A program made the position numbers and the translations under genes. Positions 634 to 35,545 of a DNA stretch of 64,000 nucleotides are shown here, one piece after another. Source of the stretch: Tatumella sp. JGM118 (lineage in GTDB: Bacteria; Pseudomonadota; Gammaproteobacteria; Enterobacterales; Enterobacteriaceae). The stretch is from positions 1 through 64,000 of the forward strand of contig NZ_JAERJR010000009.1 of the NCBI RefSeq assembly GCF_018257515.1, in the 5' to 3' direction. The notes beneath the pieces are model-generated. The model made no database searches, had not been told where the DNA came from, and worked only from the letters and a program-made list of their open reading frames with translations. How positions within the stretch are numbered: position 1 is the stretch's first letter; the number at the start of each line of letters is the position of its first letter.

Positions 634-2715
634 TTAAGACAGATGCCCGCGGATCACCACTTCCAGGTCTTCAGGGACCTCGTTATAAGACAGCACAAAC
701 AGCTCACGTGAAAATGAACGGGCATAGCGTGCCAGCAGTGGCCGCAATGCCGGCGGGACGATCAGTACCGGAGGCAGATTTTCGGCTTTCATCTGTTCGG
801 TGATCAGCGGCATATTGGTTTGTAACTGCGTTAACAGATGCGGATCCAGCGGCACGTTATCCAGCTCTTTATTGCCTGCCGCCTGCTGGGCGCGTAGCAG
901 TAACTCTTCTAAGGCATCACTGAGGGTAAATACCGCAAACTGCCGGCGATCCTTATTGATCCCGTGGACTATCTGACGACGAAGGGCGTAGCGGACATCG
1001 GCGGATAACAGCAGCGGATCTTTGGTGATCTGGTGCCCGGCGAGCAGTGCCGTCGCAATGGTGACAATATCCTTCAGGCTGACATTGTCGGTCAGTAACT
1101 GACGATAAATACGTAACTGTTGGGTGTAATTCAGTGCTGCATTTAAGTCTTCACTTAACCGGGGCGCGGGCTGAGCTAACCGGCGATGCAGTGCCGTAAT
1201 ATCATCGTACTGAAAAAGCTCAGGCAGATACTGCTTCACCACTTTATTCACATGCGTTGCAATCACGCTGGCGCAATCGACTACCTGATATCCGAAGCGT
1301 AGTGCCTGGCTTTTCTGTGCCGGATCAATCCAGATAGCGGACATGCCATAGGCGGGATCGGTCCCGAGGATCCCATCCAGTTCGCCATAGACTTCACTGC
1401 TGGCGAGCGCCATCAGCTTATCGGCATGAACTTCTCCCAGCGCGGCACGGACACCATGGATCATAATACTGTACTGCGTAGGTTTCAGGCGGAAGTTTTC
1501 CCGCACCTGAATTTCCGGCAGCAGCATCCCGCTACTCTCGGAAAGGACCTGCCGGACGCCGGTGATGCGCTGAGACAGTAAGCCGCCCTGGTGTTTGTCG
1601 ATCAGGCTGACCAGCCGGTAGCCCAGGTTAAGCCCGACCGGCTCGGTCACGGAGAGGCTTTCCCAGTGCAGCCGAGGGACTTCCGGCTCCAGCGCCTTCT
1701 CCACCACATCCGTCGCGGACTGGCTGGCTGCCAGAACACGTTTTGACTGACGCCATCCGGCAAAACTCAGTAAAAGCGCAAAGCTCAGGAAGGCGATATG
1801 CGGCATGCCGGGAACGAGGGCCATGGCCAGCATAATGCCGGCGACGGTATACAGGATCGCGGGCTGGGCCAGCAGCTGTTGACGCACTTCGTGGCGGATA
1901 TCCTGACCATCACTGACCCGGGTCACGATGATCGCGGCCGCCGTTGACAGCAGTAACGAAGGCAATTGCGCGACCAGACCATCGCCGATCGTCAGCAGGG
2001 CATACTGCTGAAAGGCATGACCGGCATCCAGATGGTGTTTAAATATGCCGATCGCCACGCCGCCGACCATATTGATCACCAGAATCAACATACCGGCGAT
2101 CGCATCACCCCGCACAAACTTCGAGGCACCATCCATCGACCCATAGAAGTCAGCCTCGCGGGTCACTTCAGAACGTCGTTCGCGGGCCTGGGCCTGAGTA
2201 ATGATCCCGGCGTTAAGGTCGGCATCGATGGCCATTTGTTTGCCTGGCATGGCATCCAGCGTAAAGCGCGCGGAGACCTCGGAAATACGTTCCGCGCCTT
2301 TGGTGATCACCACGAAGTTAACGATCATCAGGATCACAAAAACGACAAATCCGACCAGGAAGTCTCCGCCAATCACGACCTGACCGAAGGCTTCTATCAC
2401 TTTCCCTGCCGCCCCTTCGCCTTCCTGTCCATGCAGCAGCACAACCCGCGTTGAGGCGACATTCATGGACAGTCTCAGCAGCGTGGTGATCAGCAGCAGT
2501 GTCGGAAAGATACTGAAATCGAGGGGCCGTTGCGCATTGACGGAGACCAGCAGGATCAATATTGCCAGCACAATATTAAAGGTGAACAGGCAGTCCAGTA
2601 TCAGCGGATCTAACGGCAAAATGATCATGGCCAGCACTGCCATTATCAGCAGTGGCAGGCCCAGCGGCAGCGCTTTGCCGCGCCGGAGCCAGTGAGTCAA
2701 TGGCAATTTATTCAC
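634..2715 (-). CDS. flhA: Flagellar export gate protein FlhA (lateral type, LfhA)
   Basis: FlhA forms the nonameric inner-membrane and cytoplasmic ring of the flagellar type III export gate. The 693-residue product has hydrophobic segments over its first ~300 residues, the family signature around residues 150-169 (LDAMPGKQMAIDADLNAG) and a soluble C-terminal domain. I chose the GTG at 2715: it overlaps the flhB stop (CGTGAATAA) and follows a GAAGGA ribosome site. An upstream ATG would add 31 residues lying entirely inside flhB. It is the last gene of the minus-strand run fliM-N-P-Q-R-flhB-flhA. Family assignment is firm; the lateral type comes from cluster context. Confidence 0.95.
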   Translation of the reverse strand: MNKLPLTHWLRRGKALPLGLPLLIMAVLAMIILPLDPLILDCLFTFNIVLAILILLVSVNAQRPLDFSIFPTLLLITTLLRLSMNVASTRVVLLHGQEGEGAAGKVIEAFGQVVIGGDFLVGFVVFVILMIVNFVVITKGAERISEVSARFTLDAMPGKQMAIDADLNAGIITQAQARERRSEVTREADFYGSMDGASKFVRGDAIAGMLILVINMVGGVAIGIFKHHLDAGHAFQQYALLTIGDGLVAQLPSLLLSTAAAIIVTRVSDGQDIRHEVRQQLLAQPAILYTVAGIMLAMALVPGMPHIAFLSFALLLSFAGWRQSKRVLAASQSATDVVEKALEPEVPRLHWESLSVTEPVGLNLGYRLVSLIDKHQGGLLSQRITGVRQVLSESSGMLLPEIQVRENFRLKPTQYSIMIHGVRAALGEVHADKLMALASSEVYGELDGILGTDPAYGMSAIWIDPAQKSQALRFGYQVVDCASVIATHVNKVVKQYLPELFQYDDITALHRRLAQPAPRLSEDLNAALNYTQQLRIYRQLLTDNVSLKDIVTIATALLAGHQITKDPLLLSADVRYALRRQIVHGINKDRRQFAVFTLSDALEELLLRAQQAAGNKELDNVPLDPHLLTQLQTNMPLITEQMKAENLPPVLIVPPALRPLLARYARSFSRELFVLSYNEVPEDLEVVIRGHLS

Positions 2716-3832
2716 GGAATTGTCCTTCTGAAGGCATCGGGATTTTTCGATTGATGGTCGGTTTTTGCTGAGATTTATCCTGCCGCCAGCGCCGTAATTG
2801 CATGACATAGGTCAGTACATGGGCAATGGCCTGATAAAGCTGATTCGGGATCTGCTGATTCACACGTGTCGAGGCATAGACAGCCCGGGCGAGCGGCGCG
2901 AACTCAACGATTTCTATCTGATGTTCTTCACCAATCTGCCGGATAAAAAGCGCCAGATCATCGGCTCCTTTCGCGACTACATACGGAGCGGCGGCCGCCT
3001 GCGGATCGTATTTCAGTGCCACTGCATAGTGGGTCGGGTTCGTGATAATGACATTGGCCTGAGGGACGGTTTTTCTGAGTTGTCCCTGAGCCAACTGGCG
3101 CTGTAACTGGCGTAAACGCCCCTTAATCTGCGGGTTCCCTTCGCTGTGTTTAAATTCATCTTTGACTTCCTGTCGCGTCATTCGCATTTTACGCCGGAAC
3201 TGATAACGACTCAGCGGCCATTCAAGCAGGGCAAACCCCAGCATCAGCAGTACAAAATAGCCAAACAGGCGGGCTACCAGGGCCAGCCCTTCACTCATCG
3301 CCACAGGCCAGCCCAGCTGTGATAACAGCATGATGTCCTGCAATGAATGGCGTAATAACAGGCTTAACATCAGTAAAATAAGCCCGGCTTTCAGTATCAC
3401 TTTCGCTAATTCGATAAAATTGTCGGCGGCAAACAAGCGGGTAAAACCGGTTAACGGATTCAGTCGCTTACCGTCCGGCATAATTTTTTTCAGGCTGAAT
3501 ATCCATCCACCGCTGAACAGCGTAGCAATACCGGCGGCCAGCGGAACCGTACAAAAGCTGAGCGTGATGGTTAATAACAACCCCAGCGCCTTACCTGTCA
3601 GCAGGACTAACCGTGCGCCCGGATCAGAGGTGTGTACCCCCTCTGACGCTTGCCGGAAAAAATCGCCAATCAGGTGCCAGTACCAGGGTAATAATCCGGT
3701 CAGCGTCATAAAGGCGACCGCCAGTGAAATCGCCGATGAAAACTCTTTGGCCCGGCCGGTATCGCCTTTTTCGCGGGCTTTTTTGAGCTTTGCCGGTGTC
3801 GCCTTCTCACTTTTATCACTGGCCTGAGACAT
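2708..3832 (-). CDS. flhB: Flagellar export switch protein FlhB (LfhB)
   Basis: This 374-residue inner-membrane protein switches export specificity from rod/hook to filament substrates when it cleaves itself. Four hydrophobic segments (about 35-210) are followed by a cytoplasmic domain carrying the autocleavage motif NPTH at residues 265-268, so cleavage should work. The N terminus (MSQASDKSEKATPAKLKKAREKG) is the usual FlhB opening. It overlaps fliR upstream by 17 bp and flhA downstream by 8 bp, indicating translational coupling. The partner for the switch would be FliK, encoded at 27581. Confidence 0.95.
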   Translation of the reverse strand: MSQASDKSEKATPAKLKKAREKGDTGRAKEFSSAISLAVAFMTLTGLLPWYWHLIGDFFRQASEGVHTSDPGARLVLLTGKALGLLLTITLSFCTVPLAAGIATLFSGGWIFSLKKIMPDGKRLNPLTGFTRLFAADNFIELAKVILKAGLILLMLSLLLRHSLQDIMLLSQLGWPVAMSEGLALVARLFGYFVLLMLGFALLEWPLSRYQFRRKMRMTRQEVKDEFKHSEGNPQIKGRLRQLQRQLAQGQLRKTVPQANVIITNPTHYAVALKYDPQAAAAPYVVAKGADDLALFIRQIGEEHQIEIVEFAPLARAVYASTRVNQQIPNQLYQAIAHVLTYVMQLRRWRQDKSQQKPTINRKIPMPSEGQFRE

Positions 3833-19693: not shown

Positions 19694-20788
19694 ATGCGTA
19701 TCCTGCTGAGTATGATGCTGTTTTTTACCGGACTGAATGCCGCCTGTGCGGCACGGTTAGGCGATTTAGTGGATGTTGAAGGTATCCGCGGAAATCAGCT
19801 GATCGGCTATAGCTTAGTCGTCGGTCTGGACGGCACCGGCGATAAAAACCAGGTGCGATTTACCAGCCAGTCAGTAACGAATATGTTGCGCCAGTTCGGT
19901 GTGCAGCTGCCGGCGAAGGTCGATCCTAAAGTCAAAAATGTGGCAGCGGTAGCGGTGAGCGCTGTATTACCTCCCGGATATAGCCGGGGGCAGGCGATTG
20001 ATGTCACCGTCTCTTCCATCGGGGATGCTAAAAGCCTGCGGGGCGGCACGCTGCTTCTGGCGCAGTTACGGGGGGCTGATGGCGAAATTTACGCGCTGGC
20101 TCAGGGAAATGTCGTTGTTGGCGGCACCCAGGCACAGGGGAATAGCGGTTCGAGTATTACGGTCAATACCCCCACGGCGGGGCTGATCCCTAACGGAGCC
20201 ACGGTGGAACGTGAGATACCGACTGACTTCCAGAGTAATGACAAGGTGTATCTGAGCCTTCATCTTCCGGAATTTAAGACGGCTAATAATATTGTGAATG
20301 CGCTGAACGGGACCTTTGGTGAGGGAACCGCCACGGCGGAAAGTGCGACCCGCATCGCGGTGAATGCCCCCCGAAGTCCCGGTGCCCGCGTGGCGTTTAT
20401 GTCTGCGCTTGAAGATGTTTCGGTCACCCCGGGGCGGATGTCACCGCGGGTGGTCTTTAATTCACGTACCGGCACGGTAGTGATCGGCGAAAATGTGGTG
20501 GTACACGCCGCGGCGGTCTCTCACGGTAACCTGACGGTGACTATCCGTGAGTCGGCGAATGTCAGCCAGCCGTCGGCCCTCAGTGGCGGCCGGACGGCGG
20601 TGACCCCGCAAAGCGAATTACGGGTCAGCCAGGGCAGCGGCCACAGTGTGGTGATCCCGACCGCGACCACACTGAGAAGTATTGTGAATGCCTTAAATGG
20701 ACTAGGAGCCTCCCCGGACGACATTATGTCAATACTGCAGGCGCTTCACGAAGCAGGGGCTCTCGATGCCGAGCTGGTGGTGATATGA
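19694..20788 (+). CDS. flgI: Flagellar P-ring protein FlgI (LfgI)
   Basis: FlgI forms the periplasmic P ring around the rod. The 364-residue protein has a signal peptide (cut after the CAA region, ~residue 19) followed at once by the highly conserved [20 protein letters not shown] and [12 protein letters not shown]-like segments, and ends with the family [15 protein letters not shown]. Length is equal to the E. coli 365. flgJ overlaps its stop by 4 bp. Confidence 0.97.
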
Positions 20789-21159
20789 AGTTAATGCCGG
20801 CTTCCGGTCCGGGGCTGACTGAGGCGCTGTTACCCGGCGATATCGGGACACAGCGTAAGCCTCAGAACCTGTCTCAGGCCGCAGAGCAATTTGAGAATCA
20901 GTTTCTGCGGCAGATGATTAAAGAGATGCGGCAAGCGACGCAGGCACTGGTCCCTGACTCCCCGCTGGACAGTAAGCAGCAAGGGATGTGGCGGGATTTT
21001 TATGATGATCAGCTCAGTGCTGAATTAGCGGCAACGCATTCGACCGGGCTGGCTGAAATGATCGTAAAACAGCTATCACCTGCCGTCGCCCCTTCAGATA
21101 AGGTAGCGCCGGGTCGTTCTGTCATTACAGAGACGACTACGGCGGATAAAGACGCATGA
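20785..21159 (+). CDS. flgJ: FlgJ rod-capping domain only (no muramidase domain)
   Basis: The 124-residue product aligns to the N-terminal rod-cap part of FlgJ ([24 protein letters not shown]... [30 protein letters not shown]). Salmonella and E. coli FlgJ (about 313-316) carry an additional C-terminal glucosaminidase that opens the peptidoglycan for the rod; it is absent and the next gene begins at once (ATG overlapping the stop). A peptidoglycan hydrolase gene of a different family stands at the end of this cluster (31839). Confidence 0.92.
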
Positions 21160-29327: not shown

Positions 29328-30047
29328 ATGTCAGTTACTGAATATTCTCTCGACGAGACCTTCAGTGCGGAACAGGAAGCGGCCTGTATTCGTCAGTATT
29401 TACCGTTGGTCCATAAAATCCTGCGCCAAATCGCTCATCACGCCAGTGTGGTGATGGATTATCAGGATTTACAACAGATTGCGCTGATGGGGTTGCTGAC
29501 CGCACTGAGACGCTATGGCGTTCCGGATGAGGCTTTTCCGGGCTATGCAAAGTACCGGATCCGTGGGGCGATTCTGGATGAATTACGCCAGGCGGACTGG
29601 CGGCCGCGTACGGTCAGACAACAAACCCATGATATTGCCAGACAAATCCGCCAGCTGGCAAAACAGATCGGTCGTGAGCCGGAGTGGCCGGAGATCCGGC
29701 AGGCACTGCAGATAGATGCTCAGACCTATCATGATTATCTGCAAAGTGAGTATCTGGCCAGCATCGAAAGCCTGGATGCGGTGATGGAAAGTGAGGGCGA
29801 AGGCCGTTTCGGGTCCGAACGGGATAATCCGGAACGTTACTACGCGCGTCAGCAACAGCTTTCACAGGCCATCGCCGTACTGGATAAGCGGGAACAGCTG
29901 ATCCTGACCCTCTATTATCAGCATGATATGAACCTGAAAGAGATAGCGCTGGTACTGGAAATCAGTGAAGCCCGGGTCTGTCAGCTGAATAAACGGTTGA
30001 ACGATAAATTAGTCGCGTATTTAAAGCAAAGTGAGTCAGTATGTTGA
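29328..30047 (+). CDS. fliA: Flagellar sigma-28 factor FliA (LafS)
   Basis: A 239-residue sigma factor of the FliA class (E. coli 239). Region 2 is visible in MDYQDLQQIALMGLLTALRRYG (about 43-64) and region 4 in LNLKEIALVLEISEARVCQLNKRLNDKL near the end. It should direct late genes such as lafA and be held by FlgM (14010). Its coding end overlaps motA by 7 bp, so the stator genes are co-transcribed with it. Confidence 0.95.
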   Translation: MSVTEYSLDETFSAEQEAACIRQYLPLVHKILRQIAHHASVVMDYQDLQQIALMGLLTALRRYGVPDEAFPGYAKYRIRGAILDELRQADWRPRTVRQQTHDIARQIRQLAKQIGREPEWPEIRQALQIDAQTYHDYLQSEYLASIESLDAVMESEGEGRFGSERDNPERYYARQQQLSQAIAVLDKREQLILTLYYQHDMNLKEIALVLEISEARVCQLNKRLNDKLVAYLKQSESVC

Positions 30048-30910
30048 AGATTGGTGGGATCCTGATTGTATTTATCTGTCTGATTTGGGGATATATGCAT
30101 TCAGGCGGACGTTTAGCGGCTTTCTGGCAGCCCGGAGAGATTGTCATTATTCTTGGGTGTGGCCTGGGGACATTGATCCTGGCTAACTCCGCCACGGTAC
30201 TGAAGCAGATCCTTGCCCAGTTAAAAGGCGTCATGCGTAAAAACAGTTACTCCGCTGATTACTCACAGCAGCTATTACTGCTGATGTATGAATTGCTGGA
30301 CAGTGTACAGAATGGCGGACTCCGCAGCCTGGATAATCATATTGAGAACCCTACCGACAGTGAGGTGTTTCAGCGCTATCCGTTGATCGCCAGCGATTCA
30401 GAGCTGTGTACCTTTATTGCCGATAATTTTCGTATGATGGCGATGGGCAAGATCAATGAACATGAACTGGAAGGGCTGCTGGAACAGGAGCTTCATTCGG
30501 TTGAAGAGAATCTGTTGCAGGCCTCCCGTTCGTTACAGCGTACCGGGGAGGCGATGCCTGGCTTCGGGATCTGTGCCGCCGTGCTGGGTATTGTGATTAC
30601 CATGCAGTCTATCGATGGCTCTATTGCCGTGATCGGTGTCAAAGTGGCAGCCGCACTGATCGGCACTTTTCTGGGGGTGTTCATCTGTTATTGCCTGATT
30701 GACCCGCTGGCGAATGCGATGGAACAGCTGGTGAAGAAAAAAATGACCGCTTTTGAATGCCTGCGGACCATCATGGTCAATCAGGTCGCAGGCAAACCGC
30801 CTCTGCTGGCAGTGGATGCCGGCAGGAAAATGTTACCCGTGGAAATTAAGCCCTCGTTTTCTCAGTTAGAGGCCTGGGTAGATAACCGCCAGGAGCCTGA
30901 TTCGCGATGA
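30041..30910 (+). CDS. motA: Flagellar stator protein MotA (LafT)
   Basis: MotA surrounds the proton- or sodium-conducting stator channel. The 289-residue protein has four membrane helices in two pairs (about 2-20, 28-48, 165-190, 197-220), a cytoplasmic loop between, and the conserved AMPGFGICAAVLGIVITM segment that begins the third helix. It starts inside the end of the sigma factor gene and overlaps motB by 4 bp. The coupling ion cannot be told from the sequence; lateral stators are usually proton driven. Confidence 0.94.
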   Translation: MLKIGGILIVFICLIWGYMHSGGRLAAFWQPGEIVIILGCGLGTLILANSATVLKQILAQLKGVMRKNSYSADYSQQLLLLMYELLDSVQNGGLRSLDNHIENPTDSEVFQRYPLIASDSELCTFIADNFRMMAMGKINEHELEGLLEQELHSVEENLLQASRSLQRTGEAMPGFGICAAVLGIVITMQSIDGSIAVIGVKVAAALIGTFLGVFICYCLIDPLANAMEQLVKKKMTAFECLRTIMVNQVAGKPPLLAVDAGRKMLPVEIKPSFSQLEAWVDNRQEPDSR

Positions 30911-31839
30911 GCGGGCGCCAGAAGAATTCGACGACAATTATTAAACGTAATATCCGCCGGGCCCATGCCGGCGGGCATGGCGGTGCCTGGAAGGTGGCCT
31001 TTGCCGATTTTATGCTGGCGCTGATGTCACTTTTTATGGTGATGTGGATCATGGGGCAGGTCTCTGAAAAAGACCGGAAAGCGATCATGTATACCTTAAA
31101 TAATCAGTCGGTGTTTGAGAGCCACTCCTTCAGCCCTATCTCTTTTTCAGGACAGGATCCGGCACCTTCGGTTTCACCCGATATTTCACCTCAGGCAGCG
31201 TCACATGACGCCAGGCCGCAGAGCGCTCAGCCCTCACAGGCCACGCAGACCGCACAGGAAGCAATGTCAGAAACCGCACCTGTTGCTGCTCAGGATAAAA
31301 ATGCCGCGTCGCAGGATAGCCTGCAAACCGCCCTGCAGACCTTTGTGGCAGGTCAGAAGGCGCAGAACAATATGCGGATTGAGAAGCTGGCAACGGGGCT
31401 GCGGGTGGTGGTAAATGATGATCCCCATCGGGCCATGTTTGAACGCGGCAGCGCCCGGGTCACGCCTTATTTTCAGCAATTGCTTACCGGGCTGGTACCG
31501 GTACTGGATAAAAGCCGCGATCATATGATCATTATTGGTCATACGGATGCGACCCCTTATCCGCAGAATCCTTACTACGATAACTGGAGTTTGTCGGTGG
31601 ATCGGGCACAGTCTGCCCGCCAGGTGATGATCCATGCCGGTTTCTCCGCAGATAAAATCGTTCAGCTCTCCGGCGTTGCAGATCAGAAGCCCCTGGATCG
31701 TCATCAGCCGACCAATCCGATTAACCGGCGGATTGAGTTTATTATCCTATCTGAGCAGGGACTGGCGCAATGGGAAGAAACATTTTCGTCTCAGGCCCGT
31801 TCGCTGTCGCCGCATGATCAAATGACCGATGTCCGTTGA
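30907..31839 (+). CDS. motB: Flagellar stator protein MotB (LafU)
   Basis: MotB anchors the stator to peptidoglycan. The 310-residue product has the single membrane helix with the essential Asp (WKVAFADFMLALMSLF, Asp34), a Ser/Gln/Ala-rich linker, and a C-terminal OmpA-like domain (IIIGHTDATPY... NRRIEFIIL, about 190-280). It is complete, unlike the remnant lafU of E. coli K-12. The NlpC/P60 gene downstream overlaps its stop by one base. Confidence 0.95.
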   Translation: MSGRQKNSTTIIKRNIRRAHAGGHGGAWKVAFADFMLALMSLFMVMWIMGQVSEKDRKAIMYTLNNQSVFESHSFSPISFSGQDPAPSVSPDISPQAASHDARPQSAQPSQATQTAQEAMSETAPVAAQDKNAASQDSLQTALQTFVAGQKAQNNMRIEKLATGLRVVVNDDPHRAMFERGSARVTPYFQQLLTGLVPVLDKSRDHMIIIGHTDATPYPQNPYYDNWSLSVDRAQSARQVMIHAGFSADKIVQLSGVADQKPLDRHQPTNPINRRIEFIILSEQGLAQWEETFSSQARSLSPHDQMTDVR

Positions 31840-32585
31840 TGAGCAGGCTGTGTACCCGGACATGCCTGTGGGGAGTGTTGCTCAGCGCTCTGTTACTGCC
31901 CCTGCACGGAGAGGCAGCGAAGCCTGCTGACCACCAGGCGCGGATGGCGAAAATTGAACGGGAGCGTAACCGTCAACGCCTGTGGCATCAGTCCGTACTA
32001 TCGGCAGGTATCGCGGCGACAGCGGCGTCCACGCATTCGCGGGCGTTGCGTCAGAAAAAACAGCGACAAGCCACGCTGGCCTTACTGCGGCGGGGCATTA
32101 TTCCGGGCGATAGCGGCCTTGGGTGGGCACCGTTAGCCACCGATGAATTACTGAGAGAAACCGGGTCTCCGCAATTACTTTCTGCGCTGGCAAAGGTACT
32201 GGATACGCTGGACGCTCAGATTGGCCGCCCCTATCGCTGGGGCGGTCAGACACCGGGGCAGGGGTTCGATTGCAGCGGACTCGTCTGGTTTGCGTTCCGT
32301 GACGCAATTAACTGGCCCATTCCGCGGACGGCGCGGGCGCTGTTCACGGAACCCCGCATGGCGACGGTCTTTACGACTGAACTCCGGCGGGGTGATCTCG
32401 TCTTCTTCTACATTCACCGGCGGGATGTGCCTGACCATGTGGGGGTTTACCTGGGAAATCATCAGTTTATCGAAGCTCCCCGCACAGGACTGTCCATCCG
32501 TATCAGCCAGCTGGACCAGCCCTTCTGGCAACAGCATTATGCCGGCGCGCGTCGTGTACTCACAGAACATAACCTGCGCCACTGA
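31839..32585 (+). CDS. Secreted NlpC/P60-family peptidoglycan endopeptidase at end of flagellar cluster
   Basis: The 248-residue product has a signal peptide (MSRLCTRTCLWGVLLSALLLP, cut near GEA), a basic helical linker and a C-terminal NlpC/P60 domain with YRWGGQTPGQGFDCSGLVW (nucleophile Cys145) and DHVGVYLG (His200). The third polar catalytic position, usually His in FIHAP-type motifs, is Glu (FIEAPRTG, Glu212). NlpC/P60 enzymes cut stem peptides in the periplasm. The start overlaps the motB stop (TGATG), so it belongs to the flagellar operon. It could replace the muramidase domain missing from FlgJ; that is inference. Confidence 0.88.
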   Translation: MSRLCTRTCLWGVLLSALLLPLHGEAAKPADHQARMAKIERERNRQRLWHQSVLSAGIAATAASTHSRALRQKKQRQATLALLRRGIIPGDSGLGWAPLATDELLRETGSPQLLSALAKVLDTLDAQIGRPYRWGGQTPGQGFDCSGLVWFAFRDAINWPIPRTARALFTEPRMATVFTTELRRGDLVFFYIHRRDVPDHVGVYLGNHQFIEAPRTGLSIRISQLDQPFWQQHYAGARRVLTEHNLRH

Positions 32586-33163: not shown

Positions 33164-35545
33164 ATGTCACGGCAATCCCGAGGTTTACGCCTCATCACTC
33201 TACTTATATCGGTATTCTGTACCCTTTGGTTGATCATCGGCGGTGGCTGGTTGCTCTCCCTGGGCGGCAGTGCTTACTATCTGATCAGCGGCATCGCGAT
33301 GGCGGTGTTTACTGTCATGCTGTTAAAGAAAAGAAGCTGTGCTTTTTATCTTTACGCACTCATCCTGTTAGCGACCGCTATCTGGTCCTACTACGAAGCC
33401 GGTCTTGACTTCTGGGCATTGGCACCACGTCTGGATATCTGGGTACTGTTTGGTATCTGGATGATTCTGCCGTTTGTCTACCGCCAGCTGGCAGCGCCTA
33501 ACAAGAAATCAACCGCTCTGATGGTGATCGCGATTGTGATTAACCTGGCGATGGTGGTGACGGCGTTCTTCGGTAAGGATCCTCAGTCAGTCTACGGGAC
33601 GCTGAACCTTCAGAACTCCGGTGTTGAGCAGCCAGGCGCGAATATGCCGGCAGCAAACTGGGAAGCTTACGGGCGTACTCAGGCCGGTGACCGTTATTCT
33701 CCGCTGAGCCAGATCAACGACACTAACGTTAAAAACCTGCAGGTTGCCTGGGAGTATCAGTCGGGCGACCTGAAGCGTGCGGATGATCCGGGTGAAATCA
33801 CCAACGAAGCGACGCCACTGAAAGTCGGTAACCTGCTGTATACCTGTACTGCGCACCAGATCCTGGTGGCTATTGATGCAGCGACCGGTAAAGAAAAATG
33901 GCGTTTTGATCCGAAGATCAAATATAACCCGACCTTCCAGCACATGACCTGTCGTGGTGTTGCTTACCATGAAATTCAGCCAGCCGTTGCTCCGGGTAAT
34001 GCCCCTGCAACTCCGGCAATGTGTTCACGTCGTATCTATCTGCCAGTCAACGATGGTCGTCTGATTGCTGTTGATGCAGAAAGCGGACAGCTGTGTAAGG
34101 ATTTCGGTGATAACGGTACGCTGGACCTGCAGCATCAGCAGCCGAACGCTTATCCGGGTGGCTATGAGCCGACTTCACCGCCGGTTATCACGAATAACGT
34201 GATTGTTATTGCCGGTGCAGTGACAGATAACTACTCAACCCGTGAGCCTTCCGGTGTTATCCGTGGTTTCGATGTGAATACCGGTAAACTGGTATGGGCA
34301 TTTGACCCGGGTGCGAAAGATCCTAATGCTATTCCGGCAGACGGTCAGCACTATACGCCTAACTCACCTAACTCCTGGGCACCTGCAGCTTATGATGCCA
34401 AACTGGATTTAGTCTACCTGCCTATGGGTGTGACCACACCGGATATCTGGGGTGGCGATCGTACTCCTGAGCAGGAACGTTATGCGAGTGGTATTCTGGC
34501 GTTACACGCCTCGACCGGTAAAGAAGCCTGGTTCTACCAGACGGTCCACCACGACCTGTGGGATATGGATATTCCGGCACAGCCTTCACTGGCGAATATC
34601 ACCGATAAAGACGGTAAAACCATTCCGGTCATCTATGTACCGACCAAAGTGGGTAACATCTTTGTCCTGAACCGTGAAACGGGTGAACTGGTGGTTCCTG
34701 CCACCGAACGTCCGGTACCACAAGGACCTGCAAAAGGCGACCACCTGTCTCCGACTCAGCCATTCTCGGACCTGACTTTCCGTCCTGAGGCCAAGCTGAC
34801 CGGTAAGCAGATGTGGGGCGGCACCATGTTCGACCAGATGGTATGTCGTATCATGTTCCATCGCCTGCGTTACGAAGGTACCTTTACTCCGCCTTCAGAG
34901 CAGGGAACCCTGGTATTCCCGGGTAACCTGGGCATGTTCGAGTGGGGCGGTATTTCAGTGAACGGTAACGACCAGTTCGCGATTGCTAACCCGATGCAGC
35001 TGCCATTCGTTTCTAAACTGATCCCTCGTGGTCCGAACAACCCGGAAGAACCTGGTGAAGGTGCCGCAGGAGGTTCAGGTTCAGAAGCCGGTCTGCAGCA
35101 TATGTACGGTGTTCCTTATGGTGTTGAGCTGAGTGCATTCCTGTCACCATTAGGTCTGCCTTGTATGGAACCATCATGGGGCTTCGTTTCAGCGATTGAC
35201 CTGAAAACCAACAAAATTGTGTGGAAAAAACGTATCGGTACTATCCGTGACAGCGGCGGTCCGATCCCATTACCACCAATGACTGTCGGTACCCCGATGC
35301 TGGGTGCACCAATCACGACGGCCGGTAACGTGTTCTTCATCGGTGCAACGCTTGATAACTACATCCGTGCGTACAGCGTACGTGACGGTAAACTGCTGTG
35401 GCAGGCTCGTCTGCCAGCAGGTGGTCAGGCAACACCGATGACCTATGAAGTAGACGGTAAGCAGTATCTGGTAATTGTTGCTGGCGGCCACGGCTCGTTC
35501 GGTACCAAACTGGGTGACTACATCGTTGCTTATAAATTACCTTAA
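33164..35545 (+). CDS. gcd: Membrane-bound PQQ-dependent glucose dehydrogenase
   Basis: Gcd oxidises glucose to gluconolactone at the periplasmic face and passes electrons to ubiquinone. The 793-residue protein has five membrane helices in the first ~140 residues and then a PQQ eight-bladed propeller (WEAYGRTQAGDRYSPLSQINDTNVKNL; W-x-G repeats such as TGKLVWAFDPG and DGKLLWQARLPAGGQATP). Length equals E. coli Gcd (796). Codon choice is biased toward a few codons, suggesting high expression. No PQQ synthesis genes are in the window. Its product is the substrate of the gluconate dehydrogenase at 52993-56852. Confidence 0.97.
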   Translation: MSRQSRGLRLITLLISVFCTLWLIIGGGWLLSLGGSAYYLISGIAMAVFTVMLLKKRSCAFYLYALILLATAIWSYYEAGLDFWALAPRLDIWVLFGIWMILPFVYRQLAAPNKKSTALMVIAIVINLAMVVTAFFGKDPQSVYGTLNLQNSGVEQPGANMPAANWEAYGRTQAGDRYSPLSQINDTNVKNLQVAWEYQSGDLKRADDPGEITNEATPLKVGNLLYTCTAHQILVAIDAATGKEKWRFDPKIKYNPTFQHMTCRGVAYHEIQPAVAPGNAPATPAMCSRRIYLPVNDGRLIAVDAESGQLCKDFGDNGTLDLQHQQPNAYPGGYEPTSPPVITNNVIVIAGAVTDNYSTREPSGVIRGFDVNTGKLVWAFDPGAKDPNAIPADGQHYTPNSPNSWAPAAYDAKLDLVYLPMGVTTPDIWGGDRTPEQERYASGILALHASTGKEAWFYQTVHHDLWDMDIPAQPSLANITDKDGKTIPVIYVPTKVGNIFVLNRETGELVVPATERPVPQGPAKGDHLSPTQPFSDLTFRPEAKLTGKQMWGGTMFDQMVCRIMFHRLRYEGTFTPPSEQGTLVFPGNLGMFEWGGISVNGNDQFAIANPMQLPFVSKLIPRGPNNPEEPGEGAAGGSGSEAGLQHMYGVPYGVELSAFLSPLGLPCMEPSWGFVSAIDLKTNKIVWKKRIGTIRDSGGPIPLPPMTVGTPMLGAPITTAGNVFFIGATLDNYIRAYSVRDGKLLWQARLPAGGQATPMTYEVDGKQYLVIVAGGHGSFGTKLGDYIVAYKLP

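Follow-up and report, generated by a model that had tools for sequence, protein, structure and literature searches.

It is already known that a single-domain FlgJ can be combined with a separate glycan-cutting enzyme, as set out in the relevant sections of two reports (PMC7277832; PMC8517470). In Rhodobacter sphaeroides, where FlgJ lacks a hydrolase, the secreted wall enzyme SltF is encoded with the flagellar genes; SltF is a glycan-cutting lytic transglycosylase and binds FlgJ (PMC7277832). Borrelia burgdorferi likewise has a separate wall enzyme alongside its single-domain FlgJ, namely BB0259, a lytic transglycosylase with a glycan-cutting SLT domain whose mutants have been studied (PMC8517470). 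Among peptide-cutting enzymes, the murein DD-endopeptidases MepH (YdhO) and MepS (Spr) share their catalytic domain with YafL, MepS being the nearest in fold. YafL of Escherichia coli K-12 (b0227) has been named among the D,D-endopeptidases in a paper whose relevant section describes no flagellar role for it (PMC9238320), and among the Spr homologues (PMC4475382). The lateral flagellar (Flag-2) loci of Enterobacterales have been surveyed (De Maayer et al., 2020; PMC6993521). The main text of that survey uses none of the words yafL, peptidase, peptidoglycan, FlgJ and LfgJ, and yafL, FlgJ and peptidase go unmentioned in the main texts of two Flag-2 surveys. Among the titles and abstract openings of the open-licence papers listed, we found no paper linking YafL or any endopeptidase to Flag-2.

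Here, we analyzed a 64,000-nucleotide stretch (the window; contig NZ_JAERJR010000009.1, positions 1 to 64,000) of Tatumella sp. JGM118, the genome of which comprises 3.68 Mb in 44 contigs. A Flag-2 locus runs from lfhA to lafU at 634–31839 of the window. It holds the same lfhA-to-lafU gene set as the surveyed loci, which bears out the Flag-2 label given to it in a preliminary description. However, the clusters presented in the main text of the survey end at LafU (PMC6993521), whereas the window adds one further gene, by its phylogenetic position an orthologue of yafL. Unlike SltF and BB0259, its product belongs to a peptide-cutting family, as predicted from its sequence, and it has no SLT domain.

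The window locus and its predicted endopeptidase

The locus opens with lfhA (634..2808, − strand), the gene that adjoins yafL in loci of the E. coli type and of the lafU-yafL-lfhA type. On the forward strand, lfgJ (20785..21159, +) encodes a FlgJ of 124 aa with the Rod-binding (rod-cap) domain alone and without a muramidase domain. Rod-binding PF10135 is its sole Pfam family (residues 46–96, E = 6.6e-14), in agreement with the earlier reading of this FlgJ as rod-cap only, and LfgJ is a single-domain FlgJ as defined by Rod-binding without glucosaminidase. Its NCBIfam matches, all of them below the cut-offs, are to short FlgJ models and to positions 21–95 of a 294-position FlgJ model. The sole glucosaminidase domain detected in the genome lies not in the window but on contig C11, in a second FlgJ with a frame of 330 aa.

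Four forward-strand genes overlap serially at the other end of the locus. The chain is opened by lafS (29328..30047, +), which encodes a FliA/WhiG-type sigma factor, and continues with lafT (30041..30910, +), a motA-type stator gene named by its position and because the E. coli stretch that matches it is annotated as MotA, and lafU (30907..31839, +), whose motB-type stator product combines MotB_plug and OmpA. The fourth gene is the yafL orthologue (31839..32585, +), which encodes a predicted secreted NlpC/P60 (C40) peptidoglycan endopeptidase of 248 aa. The lafU stop codon TGA occupies 31837–31839 and the yafL ATG starts at 31839, confirming a previously noted overlap of one base between the hydrolase gene and the motB-type stop; an alternative yafL start is TTG at 31836. 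The serial overlap suggests that lafS-lafT-lafU-yafL are carried on one transcript. A search for a sigma-28-type promoter in front of yafL was uninformative, since even in front of lafA the consensus did not outscore random window stretches. The locus is flanked by an integrase-core fragment (159–569) upstream of lfhA and by a PQQ-dependent dehydrogenase-type gene (33164–35545) downstream of the Flag-2 cluster.

The N-terminus of window YafL resembles a signal peptide by eye, with a predicted helix at residues 7–18. Its only Pfam family is NLPC_P60 (residues 129–239; 32223..32555, +), matched at E = 3.4e-28 and 98.1 bits against a Pfam cut-off of 23, and by this domain content it is not a lytic transglycosylase of the SltF type. 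Alignment locates Cys145 (FDCSG; 32271..32273, +) and His200 (DHVGVY; 32436..32438, +), both invariant across 15 aligned sequences and presumably catalytic, as in this enzyme family. Glu212 (32472..32474, +; also by alignment) occupies the presumed third active-site position of the family. Of the 47 YafL-clade sequences described below, 45 have E and two have Q at this position, whereas all 23 MepH proteins have Q and three Spr/NlpC-like paralogues encoded elsewhere in the genome have H. A structural model (mean pLDDT 75.7) has a long N-terminal helix (residues 29–84) followed by the catalytic domain, the N-terminal part being mostly below pLDDT 70 except for residues 31–50. Foldseek returned MepS chains as the nearest to the model (E about 1e-11), and a profile search matched window YafL to solved NlpC/P60 enzymes. 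Window YafL shares 39% identity with E. coli YafL over 243 aa; with the MepH-like protein of its own genome (contig C11), it shares 52% over 133 aa of the catalytic domain. Fold and catalytic residues thus point to a peptidoglycan endopeptidase of the MepH/MepS type, for which cleavage is predicted. The preliminary assignment to the NlpC/P60 endopeptidase class holds, with a MepS/MepH-type fold and both catalytic residues, Cys and His, in place.

In a maximum-likelihood tree of 73 proteins, 29 lafU-adjacent copies, 17 lfhA-side copies and K-12 YafL (47 rows) form one clade (bootstrap 100, SH-aLRT 99), apart from 23 MepH proteins; the 46 Flag-2-locus copies in the clade include that of a locus remnant in genome G351. 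This placement makes the window gene orthologous to yafL of E. coli. The alternative of an ordinary MepH copy was rejected, since the tree puts MepH outside the YafL clade. Two genomes of genus g205 have a second MepH-like protein, which also falls outside it. Window YafL and K-12 YafL have in common the clade, an N-terminal motif and the E at the third active-site position. However, window YafL follows lafU, whereas the K-12 gene adjoins lfhA-lafU stumps on the lfhA side, K-12 having lost Flag-2.

The shared motif, RxxNRxxL (RERNRQRL, residues 41–48; 31959..31982, +), lies on the predicted long helix 29–84. In the form RxxNRxx[LVFIM], it is found upstream of the catalytic domain in 47/47 clade rows (46 Flag-2-locus copies and K-12 YafL) and in 10 of 11 copies from the locus stumps described below, the eleventh being without its N-terminus. 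It is absent from MepH (0/23), which differs from YafL also by its place outside the clade and its Q at the third position, as well as from the MepH of Flag-2-absent genomes (0/18), five clade members from Flag-2-free genomes (0/5) and the g205 proteins (0/2). The strict form occurs in 45/47 clade rows, against an expectation of about 0.5% for shuffled N-termini. The motif was defined post hoc, after viewing the sequences, and the clade rows are related to one another; even so, it tracks Flag-2 linkage and not the enzyme family as such.

Association of yafL with Flag-2

Flag-2 was called in a family sample of 392 genomes by a lafU match of at least 190 bits, which yielded 64 genomes. YafL is present in 46 of these and absent from 18, with 23 genera having it, 13 lacking it and no genus mixed. 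G570 and three genomes of genus g194 were excluded because their LafU matches reached only 164–183 bits (32–36%) and, as a second ground, because FlgJ lies on the opposite strand 4–5 kb off or on another contig (G472). Each of these four has one P0002 match, and the tree places those of G570 and G576 as MepH.

In 12 of the genera that hold both genomes with Flag-2 and genomes without it, YafL occurs in the former and is missing from the latter, and no genus is reversed (sign test p = 0.0005, ties dropped and stump genomes set aside). The ties include at least seven genera in which neither kind of genome has YafL (g2, g6, g7, g15, g148, g169 and g214). When 18 Flag-2-absent genomes from 11 of the 12 genera were placed by the tree, none fell in the YafL clade. 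Fisher's test on the YafL versus Flag-2 counts ignores relatedness. Among genomes with an NlpC match and neither Flag-2 nor a stump, a clade member was found in 5/163 among the matches listed (at most six candidates scored per genome), the individually checked negatives being few, namely the same 18 plus G578 and G708 by tree and G648 by match only. In G749, yafL is the single match, a kind of case that two-match counting misses. The five are G477, G579, G633, G697 and G752, two from genus g198 and three from genus g173, and no lfhA or lafU genes or stumps were found in the 10–11 kb fetched around their yafL. In the three g173 genomes (L113 4830–7425, L115 and L117), the YafL-clade gene sits beside a LafS-like sigma factor (45–51%), and in L113 (G633), the one inspected for it, a Trans_reg_C regulator adjoins it as well. 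No other searched Flag-2 gene was matched within about 10 kb at these three loci, and the pair is possibly a leftover regulatory unit.

Of the 64 genomes with a lafU match of at least 190 bits, 29, the window included, have yafL immediately behind lafU and in the same orientation, a recurrence beyond chance. In 23 of them, the window type, no lfhA lies behind yafL in the fetched stretch; among these, lfgJ precedes lafU on its strand in 18 and sits on another contig in five. The other six, from genera g177 and g236, have lfgJ 25–30 kb downstream, and in five of their stretches (L037, L041, L043, L051 and L054, not L014) an FlhA-like gene pointing to yafL was recognized by eye. A comparable FlhA-like gene by yafL of Pseudescherichia vulneris (L172) was confirmed by BLAST. 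A further 17 genomes carry yafL on the lfhA side, with lfhA convergent in 15 and not seen in the stretches of G518 and G676. In 11 of the 17, yafL, lfgJ and lafU follow one another on a single contig and strand, which is the E. coli order; of the other six, three genomes of genus g12 and G351 are described below, and in G725 and G676 the locus is split over contigs. Annotated E. coli records agree, with the order yafL, rayT, flhA in a Flag-2 strain; in K-12 and O157:H7, yafL adjoins the lfhA-lafU stumps. Loci of this E. coli type have yafL next to lfhA, outside the lafU operon and far from lafU.

The three main gene orders are consistent with circular permutation of a single cycle and may have come about through a circular intermediate or by recombination of tandem copies. 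L037, L041, L043, L051, L054 and the window (634–32585) can be drawn as such a permuted cycle with yafL at the lafU/lfhA junction. In three genomes of genus g12 (G623, G208 and G688; L083–L085), the yafL-lfhA part looks inverted relative to lafU with the convergent junction retained, and two further g12 genomes have the window order. G351 (L015, L073) retains near-full-length lafU and lfhA separated by only about 3 kb, has yafL next to lfhA and lacks a short FlgJ; this remnant is larger than the usual stumps and of a different kind.

Among named loci, several of which are the same genomes as those of the sample, 80 were found with lafU and 14 of these have yafL: Kluyvera, Dryocola, two Enterobacter, Pantoea allii, Citrobacter sedlakii, Lelliottia, Cedecea neteri, Pseudescherichia vulneris, three Mangrovibacter, strain RIT693 and Citrobacter sp. 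18056. The last of these has yafL in an inverted order (L164). No yafL was found in the other 66 within at most 10 kb on each side, a span too short for the E. coli type; these stretches include Hafnia, Buttiauxella, Pragia, Yersinia, Vibrio, Photobacterium, Aeromonas, Pseudomonas and Shewanella. In YafL-less Flag-2 loci, no wall hydrolase was found among selected non-core ORFs (ten proteins, seven from such loci and three from a g173 genome).

The overlap of lafT, lafU and yafL in the window and the 29 loci with yafL right after lafU would suit an enzyme of the stator side, which remodels the wall so that the OmpA-type domain of LafU can bind and the stator can seat, and which does not act for the rod. 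However, the E. coli-type gene adjoins lfhA, far from lafU, and no precedent was found among the titles and abstract openings of the open-licence papers listed. We regard a purely stator-side role as doubtful.

Flag-2 has been lost in several genera by deletion with similar ends, leaving head-to-head stumps of lfhA and lafU. Of 13 stumps examined, 11 have yafL alongside and two (G408 and G716) do not. Twelve were chosen by truncated lafU matches, a truncated match in G687 being left out, and 10 of the 12 keep yafL; the thirteenth (G450) was found via its yafL and is therefore not an independent case. The stump ends (L109, L119–L123 and L230–L234) are alike in 11 of the 13, lfhA being kept from about codon 150–163 and lafU from about codon 45–47, and differ in G749 and G450. 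Stump-like lfhA-lafU loci were also seen in Pantoea wallisii and P. endophytica (L168, L174), with yafL not in the available stretch. E. coli has kept yafL on a larger scale, in 5360 of 5426 complete genomes, with lafS-lafT-lafU matched in at most 1522. Among three Flag-2-less E. coli strains, yafL has a dN/dS of 0.03–0.06, indicative of purifying selection; between the Flag-2-less strains and one Flag-2 strain, dN/dS is 0.12–0.15 and dS is well above that of the neighbor dpaA, which may reflect recombination. Because of these counts and ratios, yafL must work without Flag-2 in E. coli, and its link to Flag-2 is not one of strict dependence.

This persistence, at E. coli and at the 11 stumps, together with the low dN/dS and the five clade members without Flag-2 genes or stumps in the fetched 10–11 kb, is what would be expected of a general wall-growth endopeptidase, a MepH paralogue riding beside Flag-2 for its own sake and linked to it by joint horizontal transfer. 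Such an enzyme would not, however, be expected to keep contact with lafU and/or lfhA through several gene orders, to be as rare without Flag-2 or a stump as the 5/163 among the matches listed, or to lack the N-terminal motif precisely in the five Flag-2-free clade members. We therefore consider a general wall enzyme rather unlikely. That YafL goes with Flag-2 in most sampled lineages and is not an accidental neighbor is well supported, since the copies form one clade, the neighborhood recurs, the contrasts in 12 genera agree and the motif follows the linkage. The proposal that the hydrolase belongs to the flagellar cluster thus stands on the clade, the neighborhood and the 12 genera; its second part, an exchange for the FlgJ muramidase, is not supported, given the LfgJ counts presented next.

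Short LfgJ and a proposed exchange of chemistry

The preliminary description proposed that a stem-peptide endopeptidase replaces the glycan-cutting domain of FlgJ. In the full form of this idea, LfgJ would recruit YafL as a specific substitute for the FlgJ glucosaminidase, and YafL would make the opening through which the Flag-2 rod passes. A short Flag-2 LfgJ was found in 59 of the 64 lafU genomes, and LfgJ is short in all 59 genomes with a Flag-2 FlgJ. The five without a short FlgJ are G351 and G676 (84% complete), both of which have yafL, and G238, G448 and G560, which have no YafL. A survey of short FlgJ and the enzyme, which had been suggested as a check, gave both genes in 44 of 59 Flag-2 genomes, but the short LfgJ without the enzyme in 15, so the replacement does not hold across Flag-2. 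YafL is accordingly not a core gene of Flag-2, taken as a gene present in all Flag-2 loci with FlgJ (44/59). In other families, 24 of 24 genomes with a short FlgJ (frame of at most 190 aa, among the matches listed) have no match above 70 bits in a comparison in which YafL and MepH score at least 128 bits. Because these 15 Flag-2 genomes and 24 genomes of other families have short FlgJ without YafL, the shortness of FlgJ came about without a swap. A common origin of short LfgJ and the enzyme was rejected, short FlgJ being more widespread than the enzyme.

The exchange could apply more narrowly, to species in which a short FlgJ is the only Rod-binding protein. There are nine such genomes, four with YafL (G476, G518, G718 and G725) and five without (G440, G493, G519, G520 and G549). 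A glucosaminidase domain is lacking altogether in G476, G493, G519 and G520, and of these only G476 has YafL. G476, from the same genus as the window, thus combines Flag-2, YafL and short FlgJ alone, with no glucosaminidase domain found. According to passages of the Flag-2 survey, Tatumella ptyseos has no primary system and is motile, Pragia fontium (G440, without YafL) is motile without a primary system, and Leminorella grimontii (G518, with YafL) is called non-motile (PMC6993521). The lateral FlgJ of Plesiomonas has 328 aa in a published report, and therefore lateral systems differ.

The exchange draws further on YafL being the sole wall hydrolase among 19 scanned ORFs of the window cluster, and on the precedent of SltF and the Borrelia enzyme for a single-domain FlgJ with a separate wall enzyme (relevant sections of PMC7277832 and PMC8517470). 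Against it, besides the counts above, YafL is absent from five of the nine short-FlgJ-only genomes and three of the four without a glucosaminidase domain, yafL sits among stator genes and not rod genes, and E. coli retains yafL without Flag-2. We judge an exchange of this kind improbable overall. It may apply in those Flag-2-only species that have YafL, yet it is not general and leaves the short LfgJ unexplained. Whether a flagellum can cross the wall by means of a peptide-cutting instead of a glycan-cutting enzyme is a testable question, for which short-FlgJ-only genomes with YafL (G476) and without it (Pragia fontium) provide a ready-made comparison.

A proposed role for YafL

The reading that we favor, and hold to be probable with some reserve, is that YafL is a Flag-2-linked but dispensable crosslink-cutting endopeptidase that aids Flag-2 insertion, with rod passage as one of several possible roles. 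YafL would be exported by Sec to the periplasm as a cysteine endopeptidase of the MepH/MepS type and, by analogy with its family, would cut the stem-peptide crosslinks of peptidoglycan and not the glycan. Given the gene overlap, it would be made together with lafS-lafT-lafU. It may then loosen the wall at the insertion sites of Flag-2 basal bodies or stators, which would help the rod to pass, the peptidoglycan-binding domain of LafU to be seated, or both. The N-terminal RxxNRxxL helix is the best candidate for a tether to a Flag-2 partner, and the motif provides the residues to probe first in YafL. Other endopeptidases and lytic transglycosylases may substitute for YafL. Some Flag-2 lineages are without YafL, and therefore it would be helpful and not obligatory; because E. 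coli keeps yafL after the loss of Flag-2, the enzyme can presumably also serve the general wall.

A stronger version, in which YafL is a dedicated Flag-2 wall-opener in most enterobacterial lineages, its helix docked on LfgJ or LafU and crosslink cutting taking the place of glycan cutting, seems unlikely to us. If it were true, E. coli yafL would be a flagellar enzyme that has outlived its flagellum and been turned to another use. Under the favored reading of a linked, dispensable endopeptidase, this little-studied E. coli gene gains a likely origin and partner system. In K-12, SrsR binds between dinJ and yafL, as reported in the relevant section of PMC9181523, which suggests that yafL is under stationary-phase control there.
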